NCBI RefSeq assembly: GCF_002355515.1
Contig: NZ_AP014809.1
Span: 5,294,501 to 5,358,500, forward strand
Reading direction: 5' to 3'
DNA length: 64,000 bases
Source of the DNA: Methylorubrum populi
GTDB lineage: Bacteria > Pseudomonadota > Alphaproteobacteria > Rhizobiales > Beijerinckiaceae
Positions 1,739-34,831 of this stretch are shown in pieces (the first letter of the stretch is position 1; each line of letters starts with the position of its first letter). The notes beneath the pieces are model-generated. The model searched no databases, was not told the origin of the DNA, and saw nothing but the letters and a program-made list of their open reading frames with translations. A program made the translations under genes and the position numbers.

Positions 1739-1982
1739 GCCGCCGCTGGATCGCGCCGGACCGGCCGGATGAGGATGTGCTCTCGGCACTCTGCCGAACC
1801 TCGAAGGTCCGCCTTCCGGTGCTCGATGAGGGCGGGGTGAACGTCCTGGACGGAGGGCCATTCGTCGCCTGTCCACACGGGACGAGAAATTATCCGGCTC
1901 CGTCACGAGCGGTTAAAGCCACTCGGCATACAGCCACTCCCGCATTCCGGCCGCGGCGAGGCTATGGGGGGTGGGGCGGCAC

Positions 1983-3434
1983 ATGTCGGACAATCAGCGC
2001 GAGGCACTCCGCCAGAAAGTGTTGGCCGAGATCGCTCTCCTCGATACGCCGCCCGAGCGCGAGTTCGATGTGCTGGCAAAGCTCGCACGACGAATGCTTG
2101 GCACCGGCATGTCCTCGATCACCCTGATCGCCCCGGAGCGCCAGTGGTTCAAGGCGCGGTGCGGCCCCCTGGCGCCGGAGACCGCGCGGGCTCGGGCGTT
2201 CTGCCCCGTCGTGGTCGAGACCGAGGCGCCGCTCACCGTGGCGGATGCCCGCCTCGACCCGCGCTTCGCCGGAAGCCCGTTCGTCACGGGCGCACCGAAC
2301 ATCCGCTACTACGCAGGCGTCCCGGTTCGCGCCCGTCTGTCGGACGGCGACGTGGTGACGATCGGCACGCTCTGCGTCCTCGACGAGCAACCGCGCGTGC
2401 CGATGCCGACCGACGTGGAGGTTCTGGAGGAGCTGGCCTGCGTCGCCGAAGCCCTGATCGAGGCTCGGGCCGCCGCCCTTCGCGCCGCCAAGGTTGCCGA
2501 GGAGCATCGCCTGGCCGTCGAGCGGCTGGAGCGTGAACGCCGCCAGTTCAAACAGGCCGAGCGCATGGCCGATATGGGCTCCTACCGGTACGATATCGAG
2601 AAGCGGTCCACCACTTGGTCGGACGGCGTCTTCGCCATCCACGAGCGGCCCGTCAGCGGCGGCGTGCCGAGCGGCGAGATCATGAACCACTTTCCCGAGC
2701 CCGACCGCGCCCGGTTCGTTGCCGCGGTGATGCGCACGCTGGACACGGGCGAGCCGTTCGAGATGGACGCGGATCTCGTGACCGCGAAAGGCAATGCGCG
2801 GCGCGTGCGGTGCTCCTGCGAGATCGAGTTGGCCAAGGGCAAGCCTGTCGCTCTCATCGGTCTGATCCAGGACATCACCGAGCGGCACGACCTGGAGCAG
2901 CGCCTGCGCCACCAAGCCCGCACCGACGACCTGACTCAGCTGGCCAACCGGGCCGAGTTTCACCGGGTTCTCGATGCACGGCTGCGCGCGGCGCGCGTTG
3001 CGGACGGCGACGTGGCGGTGCTTCTGATCGACCTCGACGGCTTCAAGGGCGTCAACGATGTCCTCGGCCACGCGGCGGGCGACGCGGTGTTGCGCCGTAT
3101 CGCCGAGCGGCTGCGCGCCGCCTGCAACGACGGCTGTCTTCCGGCCCGACTGGGTGGTGATGAATTCGCGGTCGTGATGTCCGCCGGTCTCGATCGCGAC
3201 GGACTCGATCGGAAGGTGCGGCGCCTGCTGCACGACCTCGAAATCGTCGCGGACGGACAGGGGCACATCGCCCGCGTGACGGGAACGATCGGCATCGCGT
3301 GGTCGCGCGGGGCCGCACAGGATCGCGATGTGCTCCTGCGTCAGGCGGATGCGGCGCTCTACGCTGCCAAGCGCACCCGGAAGGGAACGGCGCAGACCTA
3401 CGAGCTCGGTGCGGACAACCGACAGGCCGGTTGA
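1983..3434 (+). CDS. GAF-PAS-GGDEF diguanylate cyclase
   Basis: 483 aa from the ATG at 1983, preceded by the purine-rich GGGGGTGGGG; a GTG at 1971 is an in-frame alternative. It has an N-terminal GAF domain (about residues 20-160, DTPPEREFDVLAKLAR), a PAS domain (about 190-300, ADMGSYRYDIEKRS, ending ITERHDLEQRL) and a GGDEF domain (about 315-475) with an intact GGDEF signature at 391-395 (RLGGDEFAVVM). It should make cyclic di-GMP from two GTP. The place where the RxxD inhibitory site normally sits reads NDGC, so product feedback inhibition is probably missing. There is no EAL domain and no membrane segment, so it is a cytoplasmic sensor. Monocistronic. Confidence 0.9.
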   Translation: MSDNQREALRQKVLAEIALLDTPPEREFDVLAKLARRMLGTGMSSITLIAPERQWFKARCGPLAPETARARAFCPVVVETEAPLTVADARLDPRFAGSPFVTGAPNIRYYAGVPVRARLSDGDVVTIGTLCVLDEQPRVPMPTDVEVLEELACVAEALIEARAAALRAAKVAEEHRLAVERLERERRQFKQAERMADMGSYRYDIEKRSTTWSDGVFAIHERPVSGGVPSGEIMNHFPEPDRARFVAAVMRTLDTGEPFEMDADLVTAKGNARRVRCSCEIELAKGKPVALIGLIQDITERHDLEQRLRHQARTDDLTQLANRAEFHRVLDARLRAARVADGDVAVLLIDLDGFKGVNDVLGHAAGDAVLRRIAERLRAACNDGCLPARLGGDEFAVVMSAGLDRDGLDRKVRRLLHDLEIVADGQGHIARVTGTIGIAWSRGAAQDRDVLLRQADAALYAAKRTRKGTAQTYELGADNRQAG

Positions 3435-3715
3435 GCCTTTCCTGTCGTGACGAGGCTGAAACGGGCGAGCCGTGTCGCCCGTCCAGAGAACGATAACCTC
3501 GGGACGCGCCGCTTCCGGGACGGCGCCCAGGCCATACCTTCGGCTCAGCGGGGACGGCGGCGATAACATCCACTTTCCGGCGACGCGTCGTGGTCCGTTC
3601 CTCACCCGGCTCGGACCTTTGCGCCGGCTTCTCGTGACACCAAGCGTTGATGAAAAAGCGCCCCCCGGCCGTGGCGTGCGGTCGAGACCTCTGCGTGATC
3701 GAGGCCTCTTGTCCA

Positions 3716-4117
3716 TCACCGGATTTTTTGGATTGGCGGCATCTCCGGCCGTGGCCCGGTCTGCCCCTTATCCTCCCATTCGATGGACGCCTTCAGCCAC
3801 GCGGCCAGCTTTTGAAAGTGCTCTGCCTTTCTTTCCAGATCCCTCAGCAGGGCAACCCCGACTTCTCTGCCTCGCTCGGGGGGAAGTCCGCAGCTATCCT
3901 GCTCCTTCTTCAGGGCAACCATCTGCTTGATCGAAAGGCCGAGCATCTGGCCCACACGGATATCCTCGACCAGTCTCAGATGTTCTTTCGTGAAAACGCT
4001 GTAGGGGTTGCGGCCGCCCTTGCTGGTCTTGTTGGGTTCGAGAAGCCCGTGGCGGATGTAGAAGCGCACCGTGTCGGTCGTCAGGCCCGTGGCTCGGGCG
4101 AATTCCGAAATGAGCAT
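3716..4117 (-). CDS. MerR-family transcriptional regulator
   Basis: 133 aa from the ATG at 4117, chosen because MLISEFARATGLTTDTVRFY is the usual beginning of a MerR winged helix-turn-helix; in-frame ATGs at 4126 and 4144 are alternatives. The DNA-binding part fills residues 1-70, followed by a coiled-coil segment (LLRDLERKAEHFQKLAAWLK). The C-terminal region has one cysteine (DSCGLPPERG), not the paired cysteines of a metal sensor, so the effector cannot be named. It is divergent from the DUF2147 gene that starts 170 bp away and may control it. Confidence 0.85.
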   Translation of the reverse strand: MLISEFARATGLTTDTVRFYIRHGLLEPNKTSKGGRNPYSVFTKEHLRLVEDIRVGQMLGLSIKQMVALKKEQDSCGLPPERGREVGVALLRDLERKAEHFQKLAAWLKASIEWEDKGQTGPRPEMPPIQKIR

Positions 4118-5488: not shown

Positions 5489-5691
5489 CGCGGCGGCGCC
5501 TCGGCGCTCGGGATCGCAGCGCCCGTCCGCGTCACGCCGAGATCGGCCAGAAGCCGCGCGTCGAGGCCAGCCAAAGCCTCCGTGATCCGCTCATTCCGCG
5601 CAGCGCCCGAGGCCGCCTCCCGACGGCGGCGCCATCCCGCGACGACCCCGTCGAGGCCTCGGCGCAAGGCGTTCCCGATCCACTCCATCAT
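5287..5691 (-). CDS. DUF1127-domain small protein
   Basis: 134 aa from the ATG at 5691, preceded by GGAGCAACA; a second ATG follows directly. The core RNERITEALAGLDARLLADLGVTR is the DUF1127 signature, and the N-terminal Arg-rich helix (GWRRRREAASG) is typical. Most DUF1127 proteins are 45-75 aa; the extra C-terminal 65 residues lie antisense to the 3' end of the YdcZ gene and are low-complexity, so only the first half may be conserved. DUF1127 proteins in alphaproteobacteria are linked to phosphate, stress and RNA metabolism. Divergent from the LysR gene 118 bp away. Confidence 0.6.
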   Translation of the reverse strand: MMEWIGNALRRGLDGVVAGWRRRREAASGAARNERITEALAGLDARLLADLGVTRTGAAIPSAEAPPRQRRQTRTRPPIISAQPRMRHGSAVCWANPTQPKWSSTTEVMMAAVTVMPVNTAAPSRSAMKIVAST

Positions 5692-5809
5692 TGTTGCTCC
5701 ATCCGTGGCGCCGCGAGGATGCAGGCGGCGTTGTGATGAGTCGAACGAATTGATTTCACGCAAATGGTGAGGGAATCTCATCGGAACGCCATGTCATCGG
5801 AAGCCGATC

Positions 5810-6697
5810 GTGAGCGCGTCCACCCCGTCGAACCTCGATCTCGATCTCGTCCGCACCTTCGTGACGATCTGTGAAACCGGCACCTTCGCCCGTGCCGCCG
5901 ACCGGGTCGGTCGCACGCCCTCGGCCGTCAGCCTCCAGGTCAAGCGGTTGGAGCAGCGCCTGGGCCGGGCCCTGTTCGTGCGCCAGTCCCGCGCGGTCGT
6001 TCCCACTGCCGACGGCGAGGCGTTACTCGGTCTCGGTCGCCGCCTGCTGGCCCTGAACGACGAGGTGGTCGCCTTCTTCGATGCGCCGCCGATGGAGGGG
6101 CGCGTGCGCTTCGGCGCGCCCCATGATTCCGGCTTGTTCGCCCTGCCGGCCATGCTGCGGCGCTTCGCCGCCACCCATCCGCAGGTCGAGGTCGATGTGC
6201 GCCTCGACGCGAGCCGTCTGCTAGCGGAGGCGGTCGCTCAAGGTAGCCTCGACCTCGTGCTCTATACCGGCCACCACCCGTCGAACCGTGCGGCACAGGT
6301 GGTTCATTCGGAGGATTTGGCCTGGATCGGTCTGTCCGGCGGGCTTGCCGAGGCGCGCCGCCCCCTACCCCTGGCCCTCTGTCAGAGCGGCTGTACCTGG
6401 CGGGCGGCGGCGCTCGATGCGCTGGATCAGGCGGGCATTCCCTACCGCGTCGCCTACACGAGCGAGCATTGCCAGGGACAGATCGCGGCGGTGGAGGCCG
6501 ACCTCGCGGTCGCACCGCTCCCCTTGAGCGTCGCGCGGCCGCCGTTCCGCCGGATCACGGCCCTGCCGCCGCTCGGCAGCTACGACGTGCTGATGCGCCT
6601 TCGCGACGGCCCCGGGCCGGCGGCGCGGGCTCTCGCGGGCCACGTCGCGGACAGTTTTCGCGAGATCCCGGGCCTCGCGAGCCGGCTCTTCGCCTGA
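5810..6697 (+). CDS. LysR-family transcriptional regulator
   Basis: 295 aa with a GTG start. The N-terminal winged helix-turn-helix (LDLVRTFVTICETGTFARAA, TPSAVSLQVKRLEQRLGR) occupies residues 8-70, and the rest is a periplasmic-binding-protein-like effector domain (RVRFGAPHDSGLFALPAML). Length and order are normal for LysR. It is divergent from the DUF1127 gene and lies upstream of, and convergent with, the AdhXL-like gene. LysR regulators often act on a divergent neighbour, but the target here is an inference. Confidence 0.92.
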   Translation: MSASTPSNLDLDLVRTFVTICETGTFARAADRVGRTPSAVSLQVKRLEQRLGRALFVRQSRAVVPTADGEALLGLGRRLLALNDEVVAFFDAPPMEGRVRFGAPHDSGLFALPAMLRRFAATHPQVEVDVRLDASRLLAEAVAQGSLDLVLYTGHHPSNRAAQVVHSEDLAWIGLSGGLAEARRPLPLALCQSGCTWRAAALDALDQAGIPYRVAYTSEHCQGQIAAVEADLAVAPLPLSVARPPFRRITALPPLGSYDVLMRLRDGPGPAARALAGHVADSFREIPGLASRLFA

Positions 6698-6717
6698 GCG
6701 CTATCGCATCCGTCCGA

Positions 6718-7740
6718 TCAGAGCGTCACCAGGATCTTCCCGAACACCTTTCGCGATTCCAGGCGCTCCAGCCCCTGCGCGAAGTCGGCGAGCGGCAGCA
6801 CCGTGTCGATGACCGGGGTGAGGCCGGACGCCATCTTGTCGAGGCTCTCGCGCATGTTGGCGATGCGGCAGCCGAACGAGCCGGTGATGCGGTACTGCTG
6901 CTGGAACAGCTGCATCAGGTTCATCTGCACCGACACGCCCGAGGTCGAGCCACAGGTGACGAGGCGCCCGCCGCGCTTGAGGCAGAGCAGCGAGCCGTTC
7001 CAGGTGTCCGGCCCGACATGCTCGAACACCACGTCCACGCCCTTGCGCTTGGTCAGGCGCCGCACCTCGCCCTCGAAGCGCTCCTCGCGGTAGTTGATGA
7101 CATGGTCGGCCCCGAGCGCCTTCGCCTTCTCGCCCTTCGCGTCGTCGCCCACCGTCGTGTAGACGGTGCAGCCGATCGCCTTGGCCATCTTGATCGCCGC
7201 GGTGCCGATGCCCGAGCCGCCGGCATGGACGAGGATCGACTCGCCGGGCTCCAGCCGCGCGTTGTCGAACAGCATGTGCTGCACCGTGCCGAAGGCGATG
7301 CCGGCGCAGGCCGCTCCGACGTGATCGACACCCTCCGGCACCCGCACCACGAGGCGGGCCGGCAGGTTCACCCGCTCGCGGGCGAAGCCGTCGAGATGGA
7401 AGCCCATGACGCCGGAGACGTCCTCGCACAGGTTGTCGCGGCCTTCACGGCAGGCCCGGCATTTCCCGCAGGTCAGGGCGCCGTAGGGCACCACCGCATC
7501 GCCGACGGACAGGCCCTCGACGCCCTCCCCGATCGCCGCGATCTCGCCCGCAGCCTCCGCGCCGACGGTGAGCGGCAGCTTGCGCTTGGCGAAGGCCATG
7601 CCGCGAAAGCCCCACACGTCGATGAAATTGAGCCCGACGGCCCGCACCCGCACCTGAACCTCGCCGGGTCCGGGCGCGGGCGGCGGCTCGACCTCGGTCA
7701 GGCGCAGGTCGCGGTCGCCGAAGAGCTGGAGGGCTTGCAT
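6718..7740 (-). CDS. Zinc-type medium-chain dehydrogenase, AdhXL-like
   Basis: 340 aa, ATG at 7740. It has the GroES-like N-terminal half (GLNFIDVWGFRGMAFAKRK), a structural zinc cysteine cluster (CGKCRACREGRDNLC, Cys spacing 2, 2 and 7) and the NAD(P)-binding motif HAGGSGIGTAAIKMAKA. Sequences such as CREGRDNLCE and FGTVQHMLFDNARLEPGES match what I recall of the rhizobial dehydrogenase encoded in the acpXL cluster (adhXL), implicated in making the C28 acyl chain of lipid A. That cluster begins 3.7 kb away on the same strand but is interrupted by a kinase gene of opposite orientation. The enzyme class is certain, the XL role is inferred. Confidence 0.85.
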   Translation of the reverse strand: MQALQLFGDRDLRLTEVEPPPAPGPGEVQVRVRAVGLNFIDVWGFRGMAFAKRKLPLTVGAEAAGEIAAIGEGVEGLSVGDAVVPYGALTCGKCRACREGRDNLCEDVSGVMGFHLDGFARERVNLPARLVVRVPEGVDHVGAACAGIAFGTVQHMLFDNARLEPGESILVHAGGSGIGTAAIKMAKAIGCTVYTTVGDDAKGEKAKALGADHVINYREERFEGEVRRLTKRKGVDVVFEHVGPDTWNGSLLCLKRGGRLVTCGSTSGVSVQMNLMQLFQQQYRITGSFGCRIANMRESLDKMASGLTPVIDTVLPLADFAQGLERLESRKVFGKILVTL

Positions 7741-29434: not shown

Positions 29435-30226
29435 TCAGGCCCCTGGACACATCTCGACGAAGGAGTTGGTGAAGGGCCGGAGGCTAAAACCAGCGCGCTC
29501 CAGCTCCGCGCGCACGGCTTGTGCCATCGCGATAGCCTCCGGATTGTCGCCGTGGACGCAGACGGTGTCGATCTCGACGGGAATGCATCGTCCTCCGCGT
29601 GTGAAGACGGCACCCTCCTCGACCATGCGCACGACGCGCGCGGCGGCTTCCTGCGCCTCGTGGATCACTGCGCCCGGCGAGCCGCGGGGGCTGAGCGTGC
29701 CGTCCTCGGCATAGGCGCGGTCGGCGTAGATCTCCCGCACGAGGGTCAGCCCGGCGCGCGCGCCGGCCCGCTCGGCGGCGAGCCCCGGCATCACCACCAG
29801 GGCAAGGCCCGGATCGACCCCGGCCACGGCCCGGGCCAGGGCGTCGGCGACCGCCTCGTCCTCGTTCGAGAGGTTGGCGAGGGCGCCGTGCGCCTTGACG
29901 TGGGTGACGCGAGCGCCCGCCAGCGCGGCGCAGGCCTGGAGCGCGCCGATCTGATAGGCGATGTCGCGCTCGATTCGTCTCGGGCTCTCCTGGATCCGGG
30001 TCCGGCCGAAACCGCGCAGATCGTGAAAGCCTGGATGGGCGCCCACGGCCACGCCGCGGGCCCGCGCCGCGGCGACGGTCTCGACCATGATGTCGGGATC
30101 GCCCGCGTGGAAGCCGCAGGCGATGTTGGCCGAGGTGACGATATCGAGGAGCCTTGCGTCGTCGCCCAGGCGCCAGGGGCCGAAGCCCTCGCCGAGATCG
30201 GCGTTGAGATCGATGCGGGCGCTCAC
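29435..30226 (-). CDS. pxpA: 5-oxoprolinase subunit A (PxpA, LamB/YcsF family)
   Basis: 263 aa with a GTG start that overlaps the stop of the XRE gene. The signatures IDLNADLGEGFG, NIACGFHAGDPDIM, VGAHPGFHDLRGFGR, VKAHGALAN and CVHGDNPEA define the LamB/YcsF family. PxpA works with PxpB and PxpC to hydrolyse 5-oxoproline to glutamate with ATP in the cytoplasm. The partner genes are not next to it in this window, so they must be elsewhere or the protein has another role. Confidence 0.9.
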   Translation of the reverse strand: MSARIDLNADLGEGFGPWRLGDDARLLDIVTSANIACGFHAGDPDIMVETVAAARARGVAVGAHPGFHDLRGFGRTRIQESPRRIERDIAYQIGALQACAALAGARVTHVKAHGALANLSNEDEAVADALARAVAGVDPGLALVVMPGLAAERAGARAGLTLVREIYADRAYAEDGTLSPRGSPGAVIHEAQEAAARVVRMVEEGAVFTRGGRCIPVEIDTVCVHGDNPEAIAMAQAVRAELERAGFSLRPFTNSFVEMCPGA

Positions 30227-30540
30227 TCGGCAGCCCGTATGGAACTCGACCTCTTCCCACGAGGTGACGCGGATGGACGCGGATGCGTCGAGGTCTCGGA
30301 ACGCGGGCGCATCATCACGCCGAAGCCTTCCGCCGCGTCGCCGATGAAACGGATGCCCTCGCCTTCGAGCACCGTGCGGATCGCATCCAGGGTTTTGGTG
30401 CGCGGCGCGACCTGATCGCTCTCGATCATGTTCAGGGTGACGGCGGAGATGCTGGCGCGGCTCGCCAGAACCCCTTGCGTCCATTTGAGAAGGCCGCGGC
30501 CGGCGCGGATCTGGGCAGGGGTGATGGCCGATGGGTTCAT
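30223..30540 (-). CDS. XRE-type helix-turn-helix regulator
   Basis: 105 aa from the ATG at 30540, preceded by GGAGATGC-like purines. The domain PAQIRAGRGLLKWTQGVLAS, then ISAVTLNMIESDQ and IRTVLEGEGIRFI, is the small XRE regulator type widespread in alphaproteobacteria. The last 30 residues are Arg/Ser-rich. Its stop overlaps the pxpA start (GTGA), so it probably autoregulates a two-gene operon. It is divergent from the Y-RNA-like array. Confidence 0.85.
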   Translation of the reverse strand: MNPSAITPAQIRAGRGLLKWTQGVLASRASISAVTLNMIESDQVAPRTKTLDAIRTVLEGEGIRFIGDAAEGFGVMMRPRSETSTHPRPSASPRGKRSSSIRAAE

Positions 30541-30723
30541 GGAGGGGAGATGCGTGAAGCTGAAAGAATTTTCAAGTTTCGGGTTGACGCATCCGCGGCA
30601 CAACCGTAAGCACGGGTCCATCGGCTCAGCCGGGCCGGAGAAACGAGCGGTATCCCATTCTCCATCAGAGAACTCCTCCGCTCTTTCACATCATGTTCGG
30701 CTTTCGGCTTGAACACCATCACC

Positions 30724-30793
30724 GGCGCGGGCCGGTCGTGATCGGTTATCACCTGCACCGTGAAGCCCCGATCACAATTTACACGCCCGCGCT
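30724..30793 (+). ncRNA. Y-RNA-like element 0 (minimal form)
   Basis: About 70 nt. The outer stem GCGCGGGC (30725-30732) pairs perfectly with GCCCGCGC (30785-30792); the inner stem GTGATCGG (30738-30745) pairs perfectly with CCGATCAC (30768-30775). The Ro-binding type motifs are GGGCCGG on the 5' side and GGTTATC (30744-30750), with ACACGCCCGCG on the 3' strand. The terminal loop is only about 22 nt and has no tRNA-like arm. It is the first of six similar elements on the strand of rsr. Confidence 0.6.
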
Positions 30794-30919
30794 CCCCATT
30801 GGCCCCGCCTCGACGGAGCAAGGCATGAGATACGACGACCTACATGTCGCCGCTTTCGCCCGTCCAGGGTCGGAGCGGCCATGGTCGATGCGGTCGAATC
30901 CGACCGCTCAGGAGCGATC

Positions 30920-31040
30920 CGGCCGCGCGGGCCGATAGCGGACGGTTATCTCAGGGAATCGAACGCCTGACGCCTTCGGGCGGAGGGCTCCGTTGTCCGC
31001 AAGGACGTTCCCGTCCGCACCCCCATGCCCGCGTGGCCGC
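30920..31040 (+). ncRNA. Y-RNA-like element 1
   Basis: About 120 nt. The outer stem CGGCCGCGCGGGC (30920-30932) pairs with GCCCGCGTGGCCG (31027-31039), 13 bp with one G-U. The motif GGGCCGA follows, then the inner stem GCGGACGG (30938-30945) with CCGTCCGC (31011-31018) and GGTTATC (30944-30950). The loop domain holds a CGCC-TTCG-GGCG hairpin and GTCC-GCAA-GGAC (30995-31006) with a GNRA tetraloop. No clear T-arm. The arrangement GGGCCGA...GGTTATC / CATGCCCG is like GGUCCGA...GUUAU / UUGACC of known Y RNAs. Confidence 0.72.
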
Positions 31041-31082
31041 CGCTCCGGCTCGGCCTTTCAATTCCCCAAATCCCCATCCCGG

Positions 31083-31220
31083 CGGCCCCTGCGGGCCGAA
31101 CGGGGACGGTTACCGGTAGAGCGCCGCGGCCTAGGCCGCGGAGGTCGCGGATTCGATGTCCGCCGAGCATCACGCCCGTAGCTCAGTCATCCGCCCCCGA
31201 CCCCCATGACCGCAGGGCCG
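31083..31220 (+). ncRNA. Y-RNA-like element 2 with circularly permuted tRNA-like domain
   Basis: About 138 nt. Outer stem CGGCCCCTGCGG with CCGCAGGGCCG (31210-31220, one bulge); motif GGGCCGA; inner stem CGGGGACGG with CCGCCCCCG (one A-C mismatch); GGTTACC. The loop domain reads in the order D-strand GAGC (31119-31122), a GC-rich hairpin in the anticodon-arm place, the T-arm GCGGA-TTCGATG-TCCGC (31147-31163), an acceptor-like stem CGAGC / GCCCG closed by ATCAC, TA, and D-strand GCTC (31181-31184). So a tRNA-like shape is opened at the D-loop and joined there to the Y stem. Confidence 0.72.
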
Positions 31221-31253
31221 TTCTCGGCTAAGTTGTAGGAAAACATTCAAAGA

Positions 31254-31380
31254 CGCACGGGCCGAAGAGGGAAGGTTATCATTCCTCATGAGGTGGTCGC
31301 GGGTTCGAAGCCCGCCGGGTCGCAAGGCCCGTAGCTCAGTCGGGTAGAGCGCCCCTTTCCTCATCCCACGACCGCGCGGC
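31254..31380 (+). ncRNA. Y-RNA-like element 3 with tRNA-like domain and capped acceptor stem
   Basis: About 127 nt. Outer stem CGCACGG with CCGCGCG (31372-31378, one A-C mismatch); GGGCCGA; inner stem GAGGGAAGG (31267-31275) with CCTTTCCTC; GGTTATC (31274-31280). The loop domain holds a perfect T-arm GCGGG-TTCGAAG-CCCGC (31299-31315), an acceptor stem CGGGTC-GCAA-GGCCCG (31316-31331) closed by a GNRA tetraloop, TA at the places of U8 and A9, and a whole D-arm GCTC-AGTCGGGTA-GAGC (31334-31350). The 5' and 3' ends of a normal tRNA are thus fused, and the Y stem takes the anticodon side. Confidence 0.75.
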
Positions 31381-31430
31381 CCGCGAGCCGGACACCCGTC
31401 CGGCCTGCGGGCACAAACCAACACAGGAAT

Positions 31431-31580
31431 CGGCCGTGCGGGCCGATGGAGACGGGTGATCGTCGGCCGGAAGGCCGGGTTCGAATCCCACGGGCCGCGA
31501 GGTCCGATGCCCGGGTGGCGGACGGGCGACGCAGGCCGCGCGAGCGGACCGCCTGTCTCTCCTCCATGCCCGCACGGCCG
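31431..31580 (+). ncRNA. Y-RNA-like element 4 with leucine-tRNA-like 5' half
   Basis: About 150 nt, the longest. Outer stem CGGCCGTGCGGGC (31431-31443) pairs perfectly over 13 bp with GCCCGCACGGCCG (31568-31580). Motif GGGCCGA, inner stem GAGACGG with CTGTCTC, then GGTGATC in place of GGTTATC. The loop has a CGGCC-GGAA-GGCCG hairpin, the T-loop GGG-TTCGAAT-CCC (31477-31489), an acceptor-like stem CGGGCC-GCGA-GGTCCG (31491-31506) with a GNRA cap, then GCCCGGGTGGCGGA, which resembles the 5' end of a tRNA-Leu. A 12-bp interrupted hairpin (31379-31411) precedes the element and may separate it from element 3. Confidence 0.72.
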
Positions 31581-31599
31581 CTGACGGAACAAACGAATT

Positions 31600-31702
31600 C
31601 GGCCGCGCGGGCCGGATTGCGAGGGTGATCAGGTCCTTGGGTTCGAATCCCGGGCGCCGCGAGGCGCCGGAATCCCTCGCACGATTCACGACCGCGTGGC
31701 CG
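31600..31702 (+). ncRNA. Y-RNA-like element 5 with T-arm/acceptor minihelix
   Basis: About 103 nt, ending 53 bp before rsr. Outer stem CGGCCGCGCGG (31600-31610) pairs with CCGCGTGGCCG (31692-31702) with one G-U; motif GGGCCGG; inner stem TGCGAGGG with CCCTCGCA is a perfect 8 bp; GGTGATC (31624-31630). The loop is reduced to the T-loop GGG-TTCGAAT-CCC (31639-31651) and a 6-bp helix GGCGCC-GCGA-GGCGCC (31653-31668) with a GNRA cap. This is the smallest unit that still looks like the top half of a tRNA. Confidence 0.72.
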
Positions 31703-31755
31703 CAACGAGCCTCGGGGACAATTCCAGAAGAACCCCGCGGAGAGAGGAGCGAGCA

Positions 31756-33360
31756 ATGTTGAACTATGGAAAGCTGTTCTCGCTCCGGCGCACCCCGCAG
31801 TCGGAGCCCCTTCCCGGCACCGTGCCGAATTCGGCCGGCGGCCACGTCTTCGCGGTGAGCGACTGGGCGCGGCTCGACCGTTTCCTGATGCTCGGCTCGG
31901 AGGGCGGCTCCTATTACGCGGGTGAGCGGGCTCTCTCCCGGAAGAACGCCGTCGCGGTGATGCGCTGCATCGCCGAGGACGGTGCGCGGGCGGTCGCGAC
32001 CATCGTCGCGGTGAGCGAGGCGGGTCGCGCCCTGAAGCAGGATCCGGCGATCTTCGCCCTGGCGCTCGCGGCCTCCGCGGAAGCGGAGGCGACCCGCCGG
32101 CTGGCGCTCGCCGCCCTGCCCCGGGTCTGCCGCACCGGCACGCACCTGTTCCAGTTCGCGGACGCCGTCGAGGCGATGCGCGGCTGGGGCCGGGCGCTGC
32201 GGCGCGCGGTCGGCGACTGGTACCGGGCGCGTCCGGTGGACGCCCTCGCCTACCAGGCGGTGAAATACCGCGCCCGTCAGGGCTGGTCGCACCGCGACCT
32301 CCTGCGACTGGCTCATCCGGAGACGGACGAGCCGGCGCGGAAGGCGCTGTTCGATTGGATCTGCCGCGGCACGCTGACCGAGGAGACCCCCGCCCTCGTC
32401 CACGCCTTCGCTTGCGTGCAGGCGGAGGGCGTCGACGGCGCTTTCGCGGCGGCGCAGGTGCGCACGCACGGCCTGCCCTGGGAGGCGCTGCCGACCGGGC
32501 TGATGACGAGCCGCGCGGTGAACGAGGCCCTGATCGAGCGGATGCCGGTCGGCGCCCTCGTGCGCCAGCTCGGCCGGCTCACCGCTTCGGGAGCGCTCGC
32601 GCCCTTCACCCCGGCGACCGAGCACGTCGTGTCCGTGCTGTCGGACCGGGAGCGTCTGCTGAAGGCCCGCCTGCATCCGATGGCGCTGCTGATCGCGCTC
32701 CAGACCTACGCGTCCGGGCGCGGCCAGCACGGCCGGCTCTCCTGGGAGCCGGTGGCGGCGATCGTCGAGGCGCTGAACGCGGCGTTCTACACCGCCTTCG
32801 GTTGCGTCGAGCCCACGGGCCGGCGCCTCGTGCTGGCGCTGGACGTCTCCGGCTCCATGGCCTGCGGCTCGGTCGCGGGCTCCGCCCTGACACCCCGCGA
32901 GGCGGCCGCCGCGATGGCGCTCGTCACCGCGGCGACGGAGGAGCACTGGCAGGTCCTCGGCTTCACCGCCGAGCCCGGCCAGTCCTGGAGCCAGGGGGCG
33001 GCGCTGACCGCGCTGCCGATCGGGCCGTCGATGCGGCTCGACCAGGCGGTGGCGGCGACGGCCGGCCTGCCCTTCGGCGGGACGGACTGCTCGCTGCCGA
33101 TGCGGTGGGCGCTGGAGCGCGGCGTCCGGGCCGACGCGTTCGTGGTCTACACGGACTCGGAGACCTGGGCGGGGCCGGTCCACCCGGTCCAAGCGCTGCG
33201 CGAGTACCGGGAGAAGACCGGGATTCCGGCCAAGCTCGTGGTCGTGGGGCTCGTCTCCAACGGGTTCAGCATCGCCGACCCGAACGATTCCGGCATGCTC
33301 GACGTGGTCGGCTTCGACACGGCGGCGCCCGCGCTGATCGCGGACTTCATCCGCGTATGA
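31756..33360 (+). CDS. rsr: Ro60 orthologue (TROVE plus vWA domains), Rsr
   Basis: 534 aa with AGAGGAG 9 bases before the ATG. Residues 1-340 form the TROVE (HEAT-like ring) domain (GGHVFAVSDWARLDRFLMLG, GSYYAGERALSRKNAVAVMR). Residues 355-534 are a von Willebrand A domain with a complete MIDAS: DVSGS at 363-367 (LVLALDVSGSMACG), Thr443 (FGGTDCS) and VVYTDSETW. Ro60 rings bind Y RNAs on the outside and misfolded RNA ends in the central hole; in bacteria Rsr works with nucleases such as PNPase in RNA quality control. The six Y-RNA-like elements directly upstream and rtcB 73 bp downstream fit this role. Confidence 0.95.
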   Translation: MLNYGKLFSLRRTPQSEPLPGTVPNSAGGHVFAVSDWARLDRFLMLGSEGGSYYAGERALSRKNAVAVMRCIAEDGARAVATIVAVSEAGRALKQDPAIFALALAASAEAEATRRLALAALPRVCRTGTHLFQFADAVEAMRGWGRALRRAVGDWYRARPVDALAYQAVKYRARQGWSHRDLLRLAHPETDEPARKALFDWICRGTLTEETPALVHAFACVQAEGVDGAFAAAQVRTHGLPWEALPTGLMTSRAVNEALIERMPVGALVRQLGRLTASGALAPFTPATEHVVSVLSDRERLLKARLHPMALLIALQTYASGRGQHGRLSWEPVAAIVEALNAAFYTAFGCVEPTGRRLVLALDVSGSMACGSVAGSALTPREAAAAMALVTAATEEHWQVLGFTAEPGQSWSQGAALTALPIGPSMRLDQAVAATAGLPFGGTDCSLPMRWALERGVRADAFVVYTDSETWAGPVHPVQALREYREKTGIPAKLVVVGLVSNGFSIADPNDSGMLDVVGFDTAAPALIADFIRV

Positions 33361-33433: not shown

Positions 33434-34831
33434 ATGACCGCGATCAACGGACGCGATCTCATCGTCTGGGGCTTCGAGCCCGGCGAGTGGTTCAAGCGCG
33501 CGGTTTCCATTGCCAACGCCATGCGCCTCGAGGGCGCCGACGATGCGGCGATCCGCGCGCATCTGGCCACCCTCGACCCCGCCACCCACGCGATCCCGAT
33601 GCGCACGAACGCCCTGGATTTCGGCGTCTTCCTCGACGCCGAGACGGAGGCCGAGCGGGCGAACGCGGTCGCTGTCATCCGCCACATGGACGCGCTCATG
33701 CGGGTGCCGACCATCGTGAAGGGGGCGGTGATGCCGGATGCCTGCCCGTCGGGCTTCGCGGAGGGGACCATCCCCGTGGGCGGCGCGGTGGCTTGCGCGG
33801 ACGCGATCCATCCGGGCTTCCACTCGGCCGACATCTGCTGCTCGGTGGCGATCACCGTGTTTCGCCGGGCCGACGACCCGAAGCGCGTGCTGGATGCCAT
33901 GCAGGCGGTGACGCATTTCGGGCCCGGCGGGCGCAACGGCGTGGTCAAGCCGCCGGACGCGGTAATGGCGGGAGTCGCGGGTAACCGCTTCCTCGCCGAG
34001 TTCGCCAACATCGCGGTCGGCCACTTCGCCAGCCAGGGCGACGGCAACCACTTCGCCTATGTCGGGCACCTCGCCTCGACCGGGCAGGTGGCGCTCGTCA
34101 CCCATCACGGCTCGCGGGGGCTCGGTGCCCAGCTCTACAAGAAGGGCATGGCCGCCGCGCGCCGGCACACGGCGATCGTCGCCCCGCGGGTCCCGGCGCA
34201 CAACGCCTGGATCCGGGCGGAATCCGACGACGGCCGGGCCTATTGGGAGGCGCTGCAGATCGTGCGGGATTGGACCAAGGCGAGCCACTTCGCGCTCCAC
34301 GACCTCGTGGCGCGCAAGGTCGGCAACGCCGTCGCGGACCGGTTCTGGAACGAGCACAACTTCGTCTTCCGCCGCGAGGACGGGCTCTACTACCACGGCA
34401 AGGGGGCGACCCCGTCGTGGAAGGGATTCTCGGCCGACGATGACGGGCGCACGCTGATCCCGCTCAACATGGCCGAGCCGATCCTGATTGCCCGCCACCG
34501 CGACCACGCGGCCTCGCTCGGCTTCGCCCCGCACGGGGCGGGCCGCAACATGAGCCGGACGGCTTACCTGCGGGAGCACGCGCCCGCCCTGCCCGAGGGC
34601 ATCGACGTGCGCTTCTTCTGCGGCAAGCCCGACCTGTCGGAGCTGCCGGGCGCCTACAAGGATGCGGCTTCCGTGCGCGCCCAGATCGCCAAGTACGATC
34701 TGGCCGAGGTCGTCGACACGGTGGAGCCCTACGGCTGCATCATGGCAGGCGACTGGGAGGCCGACGCGCCCTGGCGGAAGAAGGCGGCGGCGAAGCGCGT
34801 GGCGAAGGCCGCCGAGGCGGAAACGAAGTGA
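33434..34831 (+). CDS. rtcB: RNA-splicing ligase RtcB
   Basis: 465 aa. The Mn-binding and catalytic residues expected in RtcB are present: Asp133 and Cys136 (HSADICC), His206 (GDGNHFAYVG), His224 (THHGSRGLG), His321 (HGKGATPSWKG) and the guanylylated His367 (PHGAGRNMSRT). RtcB joins RNA 2',3'-cyclic phosphate or 3'-phosphate ends to 5'-OH ends with GTP. It lies 73 bp after rsr and before a strong terminator, so it is co-transcribed with rsr and perhaps with the Y-RNA-like array. No rtcA cyclase or RtcR activator gene is in the window, unlike the enteric operon. Confidence 0.97.
   Translation: MTAINGRDLIVWGFEPGEWFKRAVSIANAMRLEGADDAAIRAHLATLDPATHAIPMRTNALDFGVFLDAETEAERANAVAVIRHMDALMRVPTIVKGAVMPDACPSGFAEGTIPVGGAVACADAIHPGFHSADICCSVAITVFRRADDPKRVLDAMQAVTHFGPGGRNGVVKPPDAVMAGVAGNRFLAEFANIAVGHFASQGDGNHFAYVGHLASTGQVALVTHHGSRGLGAQLYKKGMAAARRHTAIVAPRVPAHNAWIRAESDDGRAYWEALQIVRDWTKASHFALHDLVARKVGNAVADRFWNEHNFVFRREDGLYYHGKGATPSWKGFSADDDGRTLIPLNMAEPILIARHRDHAASLGFAPHGAGRNMSRTAYLREHAPALPEGIDVRFFCGKPDLSELPGAYKDAASVRAQIAKYDLAEVVDTVEPYGCIMAGDWEADAPWRKKAAAKRVAKAAEAETK

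Follow-up and report, generated by a model that had tools for sequence, protein, structure and literature searches.

Putative Y RNAs with differing tRNA-like modules in an array upstream of rsr in Methylorubrum populi

Bacterial Y RNAs and their mimicry of tRNA are already known. According to two papers, YrlA has a basal Rsr-binding stem and a tRNA-like domain of D, T and acceptor arms and is located near rsr/rtcB (PMC8394870, PMC7790460), and the same three arms make up the bacterial Y RNA module as the former describes it. A bulged lower helix and a UUAUC motif are given for stem-bulge RNAs (sbRNAs) and animal Y RNAs in PMC4726728. In Deinococcus radiodurans (PMC4726728, PMC8394870), the basal stem of a Y RNA attaches to Rsr, and the RNA can link the protein to PNPase. 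A literature search that covered partial texts, with no primary survey of bacterial Y RNAs among them, found no earlier report of arrays such as the one described here. A search for permuted tRNA together with Y RNA had no match, and the partial texts examined hold no description of D-loop-opened, variable-arm or Leu-/Ser-like Y RNA modules. What is new here is that the predicted tRNA-like modules differ between the putative Y RNAs of one array.

Layout of the rsr locus

We define "the window" as the whole 64,000-nt stretch of Methylorubrum populi DNA that was analysed. Immediately 5' of its rsr gene and a rtcB-like gene lies an array of six clear Y-RNA-like elements and a weaker seventh. The six clear elements span 30720-31702 on the + strand, the same strand as rsr and rtcB; 53 nt separate the end of E6 from the start of rsr, and the gap between rsr and the rtcB-like gene is 73 nt. 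An earlier note on this DNA had counted six tandem elements, an undercount given the divergent seventh at 30623-30707, and its account omits both this element and the tRNA-like modules. In the list that follows, scan scores are from a scan with core matrices plus stems, R3 is a covariance model whose training matches came from 24 loci plus the window, and A1 to A3 are alignments of single element types.

E0, 30623-30707, + strand: divergent Y-RNA-like element without a tRNA-like module (R3 20.1 bits; absent from the earlier note)
E1, 30720-30797, + strand: putative short Y RNA of ~78 nt, GGTTATCA, without a tRNA-like module (scan 54.6; R3 44.0 bits)
E2, 30920-31039, + strand: putative Y RNA of ~120 nt without a recognisable tRNA-like module (scan 66.4; R3 63.2 bits)
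E3, 31084-31220, + strand: putative Y RNA of ~137 nt with a permuted tRNA-like module opened in the D-loop (alignment A1, 17 orthologues)
E4, 31250-31382, + strand: putative YrlA-type Y RNA of ~133 nt, opened at the anticodon position (RF02553 match; A2, 19 sequences)
E5, 31431-31580, + strand: putative Y RNA of ~150 nt in which a variable-arm-like hairpin precedes the T arm (A3, 8 orthologues)
E6, 31600-31702, + strand: putative Y RNA of ~103 nt with just a T arm and an acceptor-like hairpin, the element closest to rsr (scan 65.0; R3 62.3 bits)
rsr, 31756-33360, + strand: Ro60 orthologue with TROVE and vWA domains (PF05731, PF25045)
rtcB-like gene, 33434-34831, + strand: divergent RtcB-like RNA ligase (PF01139, 101.8 bits)

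The array shares with YrlA (RF02553; Salmonella rsr-yrlBA-rtcBA) its site by rsr/rtcB, a basal stem and tRNA-like arms, and RF02553 matches E4 across its module. It differs in that seven predicted paralogues occupy one array, that this array lies upstream of rsr whereas the Salmonella RNAs lie between rsr and rtcB, that E3 is opened in the D-loop and has an anticodon-arm-like hairpin while E5 has a variable-arm-like hairpin, and that E6 is reduced and E0-E2 are module-free. The bulged lower helix and UUAUC motif are a likeness to nematode stem-bulge and animal Y RNAs, but the matches here are below the gathering score (38), come from a bacterium and involve only E1 and E2 of the seven. The D. 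radiodurans Rsr-Y RNA-PNPase system (RYPER) has an orthologous Rsr (2nvo, 380 bits) and, as described in PMC4726728, a Y RNA that ties Rsr to an effector, as would be expected here; it differs in that several putative Y RNAs with different effector modules are predicted at this locus, where a link to PNPase is putative.

The predicted Rsr aligns over nearly its full length with three Ro60/Rsr structures (9nen, 399 bits; 1yvp, 389 bits; 2nvo, 380 bits) and is 95% identical to the Rsr of Methylobacterium sp. B4 and Leaf123. In the alignment, counted by hand, K170, R174 and H187 are the same residues with the same numbering in Rsr and 1yvp; we take these to be Y RNA contacts in Xenopus Ro (1yvp). 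The RtcB-like protein carries the motifs DICC, GDGNHF, HHGSRG, HGKGAT and HGAGR, presumably the catalytic motifs of RtcB, and is only distantly similar to curated RtcB families (best score 55.5 bits, cut-off 407).

Consensus scans for a sigma-70-type promoter and a + strand terminator at the array found neither, and for this reason they lend no support to a transcription unit; we think that such an absence from simple consensus scans is weak evidence in this genus. On the 5' side of the array a small divergent ORF (30223-30541, - strand) resembles an XRE-type helix-turn-helix protein, without a Pfam or NCBIfam match. It could be a regulator of the Y RNA array.

Core motifs, covariation and association with rsr

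The six clear elements have in common an outer helix, a bulged helix formed by GGGCCGR and AYGMCCG, a second helix, and GGTKAYC at a fixed spacing. GGGCCGR occurs at 30729, 30929, 31093, 31259, 31440 and 31609; GGTTATC, GGTTACC or GGTGATC starts 15 nt beyond each of these positions, and A[CT]G[AC]CCG is the 3' core of every one of the six. All six blocks claimed by the earlier note were thus recovered with their cores, at scan scores of 51.9-71.1 compared to a background maximum of 41.2 in six 64-kb Markov sequences, the scan matrices having been trained on 67 elements from the window and 18 relatives, these six among them. Over the whole genome (5.9 Mb) the pattern GGGCCGR-N5-12-GGTKAYC has 38 matches, the six of the array and 32 scattered ones. 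We rejected a dispersed repeat, because the only matches that cluster are those 6 of the 38, all at this array. The 5' and 3' ends pair in a basal stem that includes a bulged helix of the Ro60 type; this stem is weak in E4 and divergent in E0. Outer stems of 7-13 bp had been ascribed to all copies, which does not hold for E4, where the stem, the weakest of the six, amounts to 4 pairs and a single mismatch in addition to the core GG; in the single-sequence minimum-energy fold of E4 the ends are paired in another register.

No Rfam family reaches its gathering score in the window. The Yrl covariance search suggested earlier did find E4, at 31292-31353 (RF02553, 50.7 bits, E 3.9e-10), but this best match, over the E4 module, falls short of the gathering score of 69 bits; E3 scores 23.9 bits. 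RF01656, which by its name we take to be the nematode sbRNA family, matches E1 at 28.7 bits and E2 at 20.6 bits, below its gathering score of 38. RF00019, presumably the number of the animal Y RNA family, was not listed in the window search at E values up to 10.

The seventh element, E0, was found by R3 without filters (20.1 bits, E 5.3e-4 in 1.5 kb), where the next-best score besides the six in 30300-31780 is 9.1; R3 with default filters at E 0.01 missed it. By eye, a corresponding stretch is present in five close relatives (L023-L027). These counterparts retain GGGCC[GT]G together with a 3' core of the CCGG type; a GAGCG-type inner stem is also seen, again by eye, in four of the five. We treat E0 as a putative diverged Y RNA on the strength of its 20.1 bits.

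Covariation was assessed in 79 unique elements chosen by sequence core alone from the window and 18 relatives (19 loci). Pairing at outer-stem positions 2-5 is seen in 73, 71, 72 and 67 of the 79, whereas shuffling gives means of 54.9, 44.2, 40.1 and 47.9 and maxima of 62, 56, 52 and 59, an excess that bears out the claim that the stems are compensated between copies; at positions 6-9 pairing in these elements is not above shuffled. For the inner stem, the best of 21 offsets tried gives 5.67 of 8 positions paired versus 4.45 when shuffled. The 19 sequences of the E4 type have 95.2% of cells paired (shuffled mean 89.6%; slid versions 38.8-53.4%) and 32 double-sided cells compared to 10.0 in shuffled data, a number reached in none of 500 shuffles. 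In the 17 sequences of the E3 type the paired cells amount to 90.6% (shuffled mean 88.8%; slid 38.9-48.0%, a comparison in which the structure is favoured because it was drawn on one of the 17), and double-sided cells to 15 versus 6.1. Further pair types in the E3 type number 22, against a shuffled mean of 23.1, and 420 of 500 shuffles reach 22. The E3 D stem is beyond the reach of this test because it is invariant in all 17 sequences, and the E3 acceptor helix pairs in only 67.7% of cells. Compensatory stem change is therefore found in the all-element and E4-type sets and more weakly in the E3 type; to this extent the paired columns covary in related genomes, as the earlier note had required of a Y RNA locus.

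Stronger purifying selection on the elements than on the spacers is not clearly seen. Compared with five close relatives, including one that has no E5, stems are 86.6% identical, modules 81.8% and spacers 82.5%. Since stems and spacers are nearly equal, the elements would not be recognised from sequence conservation alone and stand out by their covariation and synteny.

Occurrence of the elements follows that of rsr. Across 111 genomes of the genus, R1, an RNA model made from 19 E4-type sequences, has matches in 30, rsr is found in 30, and both are found in 29. In the 29 shared genomes the R1 matches adjoin rsr on the same strand (tables compared by eye); in one of the genomes surveyed (G329) the rsr match is limited to residues 1-90. 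The genome with rsr only (G363) lacks an R1 match, and its rsr is in broken pieces, one of which contains a stop. The genome with R1 only (G354) is 70% complete and has a partial R1 match of 39.6 bits and no rsr found. R3 matches total 99, of which 6 are in the window and 3-7 in each of the 18 relatives, copy numbers that are in-sample for this model; every match is located upstream of rsr and on its strand. A run of six, described earlier as unusual, is not so among these relatives. The reading of the elements as Y RNAs is supported by their place and strand beside rsr, the bulged Ro60-type helix, the covariation and the co-occurrence with rsr, and also by the sub-gathering Rfam matches of E4 to YrlA (50.7 bits) and E1 to RF01656 (28.7 bits).

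Sixty-two further rsr loci yielded 164 R3 matches, all listed on the rsr strand. We dropped 8 of the 164, which overlap tRNA genes and have no Y core. The remaining 156 are in 52 of the 62 loci, 1-8 in each and five or more in 7 loci, though some of those kept may be tRNA pairs (for example L044 3820-3956, which overlaps a tRNA-Pro call); the other 10 loci have no R3 match. Some of the loci counted with R3 had also supplied matches for its training. The largest sets, eight each, are in an Anaerolineaceae locus (L086) and an Odyssella record (L057). Seven putative Y RNAs of L086 stand in tandem at 5672-6743 downstream of rsr, and one lies just upstream.

Thirteen loci (L010-L022) were meant as negative controls for R3: 12 carry TROVE proteins at 25-31% identity, and L010 a short piece at 62%. 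The 12 distant TROVE genes (L011-L022) are from the family of the window genome and have R3 matches nearby, with best scores per locus of 41.9-62.8 bits, so these loci are unusable as controls; ARAGORN found no tRNA genes in them. Their role was taken by the flanks of L023-L040 and the remainder of the window, which contain no further R3 matches at E 0.01.

At 17 of the 62 rsr loci, all outside Methylobacterium, ARAGORN finds 5 to 27 tRNA genes within ~4 kb of rsr (L046-L050, L052, L053, L062, L064, L067, L071, L075, L076, L078, L087, L094 and L098). In Chloroflexota, Polyangium and others, rsr and its Y RNAs seem to be placed inside tRNA gene arrays.

tRNA-like modules of the elements

Modules of at least 50 nt are present in 86 of 122 elements across 26 loci. 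When ARAGORN was run with blind ends on all rotations it called a tRNA in 32 of the 86 modules and in none of 430 shuffled ones. Four of these calls are in E3-type modules; within the window E4 was called, and E3 and E5 were not. The order of arms in the E4 module is T arm, acceptor hairpin, D arm, which is the order of YrlA, and this permuted module opened at the anticodon is found in both E4 and E5. It is lacking in E0 (by eye), E1, E2 and E6.

E3 has its T, acceptor and D arms in a permutation other than that of YrlA. The order in this type is half of the D-loop with GAGC, a hairpin, an AGGTC-like variable loop, the T arm, the acceptor hairpin, and GCTC with the other half of the D-loop. 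RNAalifold recovered the hairpin together with D, T and acceptor stems from the 17 E3 orthologues of A1, an alignment that omits an element of odd length from L029 (A2, the E4-type alignment, is also without L029). With ends set at the D-loop, ARAGORN drew a cloverleaf for 12 of the 17, including the E3 of the window, and failed on 5; none of 340 shuffled and none of 340 Markov copies was called. The hairpin occupies the place of the anticodon arm, and compensatory change from GC to AU is seen at one of its pairs in 3 sequences and at another in 1. In 4 of the 12 calls ARAGORN prints three anticodon bases; for the other 8, including the window's E3, its anticodon field is undetermined.

In E5 the T arm is preceded by an additional hairpin, at the site of the variable arm of class II tRNAs. 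For the E5 type, ARAGORN accepted 6 of 7 orthologues, including the E5 of the window, at 2-11 of 39-50 end points, and called none of 140 shuffled and none of 140 Markov copies; in both the E3 and the E5 tests the ends were set by hand with many cut or end points, and the shuffled and Markov controls were added afterwards. Alignment A3 omits the E5-like elements of L034 and L035. Two readings of E5 were set aside. An opening at the variable region was dropped since the ARAGORN drawing fits an opening at the anticodon, and specific mimicry of tRNA-Leu was not retained: the D part scores 23 against a shuffled maximum of 30, the T part 33.5 against 29. Of that reading we retain the variable-arm-like hairpin alone.

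The T part of E6 exceeds shuffles in similarity to tRNA (32 versus a maximum of 24), and its D part does not (18 versus 22). For E1 and E2, similarity to tRNA does not rise above shuffles, and E0 has no tRNA-like module by eye. Outside the genus, three putative Y RNAs of the Anaerolineaceae locus have D arms like those of particular tRNAs. The D arm at 5672-5824 is Leu-like, with 22 of 23 bases as in the tRNA-Leu of the window's genome (score 41; next amino acid 30; shuffled maximum 26). The one at 5992-6164 is Ser-like, with 20 of 20 bases as in the tRNA-Ser of the window's genome (40 versus 30 for the next; shuffled maximum 29), and a second Ser-like D arm is at 6472-6595 (39 versus 23.5; shuffled maximum 24). 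At another locus, the element L094 3199-3322 resembles the D-loop-opened E3 (R2 70.8 bits, R1 25.6).

Competing explanations for the array

We consider it probable that the array consists of seven paralogous Y RNA genes, in which module-free members gate or stabilise Rsr and tRNA-like members are interchangeable adapters. The support for this explanation is sequence, covariation, synteny, co-occurrence with rsr and tRNA-like folds; transcription, processing, Rsr binding and all functions of the array are expectations drawn from sequence. The array, rsr and rtcB would probably be transcribed as one unit and the transcript then cleaved into individual RNAs, each Y RNA being expected on the outer face of the Rsr ring by way of an outer helix with a bulged C. 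The predicted inner part varies from none (E0-E2) to a T arm and acceptor only (E6) and to a tRNA opened at the anticodon (E4, and E5 with its variable-arm-like hairpin) or in the D-loop (E3). All of the elements are likely Rsr ligands because the basal part is kept in six and, less well, in E0; they differ in the distal part and hence probably differ in partner, and these two points together favour a set of adapters plus module-free gates. Most likely the module-free RNAs would gate or stabilise Rsr and the tRNA-like RNAs would bring Rsr to different partners, candidates being PNPase, as in Deinococcus, and enzymes that modify or repair tRNA, the neighbouring RtcB among them.

The tRNA-like elements might instead be decoys that compete for anticodon nucleases or tRNA-binding toxins, a set of baits in an RNA-repair unit whose RtcB mends cut tRNAs. 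The rtcB-like gene directly 3' of rsr would suit such a unit, as would the five or more tRNA genes near 17 of the 62 rsr loci outside the genus, and the idea has some footing in PMC7790460. Also in its favour, E3 keeps an anticodon-arm-like hairpin, and three anticodon bases are printed for 4 of the 12 called E3-type modules. Against it, the 8 for which they are not include the E3 of the window, and E0-E2 and E6 have no anticodon arm. We regard this alternative as unlikely. Still less probable is that the elements serve chiefly as a structured leader on the rsr-rtcB mRNA, controlling rsr through Rsr binding, and not separate RNAs. The shared strand, the 53 nt from E6 to the start of rsr and the lack of a + strand terminator found between them agree with a leader; seven copies with diversified tRNA-like interiors, however, are more than an autoregulatory site needs, and in the Anaerolineaceae locus 7 of the 8 R3 matches are downstream of rsr.

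GC-rich palindromic stems and tRNA-like pieces could also be expected of decayed tRNA genes or of spreading REP-like intergenic palindromes that happen to lie near rsr. A T arm that precedes the D arm is not that of a simple tRNA gene, ARAGORN calls no tRNA in the window, the 5' pattern is unclustered elsewhere in the genome, the outer stems covary and presence tracks rsr, all of which make this origin highly improbable. A plain tRNA cluster is ruled out by the same absence of ARAGORN tRNAs from the window and by the permuted order of the arms.

If the favoured explanation, adapters with module-free gates, is correct, a single RNA-care protein may have a whole range of adapter RNAs at its disposal. 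Seven Y RNAs with a common part predicted to bind Rsr and with differing modules would be a natural variant series, in which single-copy deletions could separate gating, stability and effector recruitment. The D-loop-opened and Leu-/Ser-like modules suggest that the portion of tRNA being imitated changes from one Y RNA to another, and hence that a single enzyme with a single binding site may not be the partner. A more specific version, to which we give tentative and less than even credence, is that Rsr works with a palette of Y RNAs whose tRNA mimics are each re-wired in their own way (E3, E4 and E5; Leu and Ser in Anaerolineaceae), as separate addresses for tRNA classes or tRNA enzymes beside an RtcB ligase. 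No element of the window reaches an Rfam threshold, and other genomes may therefore hold comparable arrays that go unnoticed.

Two further observations pertain to the distribution of rsr. On a Bosea megaplasmid (L158) a 2-kb stretch 5' of rsr (1928-3964) is without listed genes, in a gene table that may be incomplete, and R3 matches there are at 3793-3934 (65.3 bits), 3583-3656 (25.9) and 3669-3773 (21.1). Relatives of Rsr are also encoded in 340 of 50,697 phage records, of which 197 are by name Mycobacterium phages and 115 Streptomyces phages.
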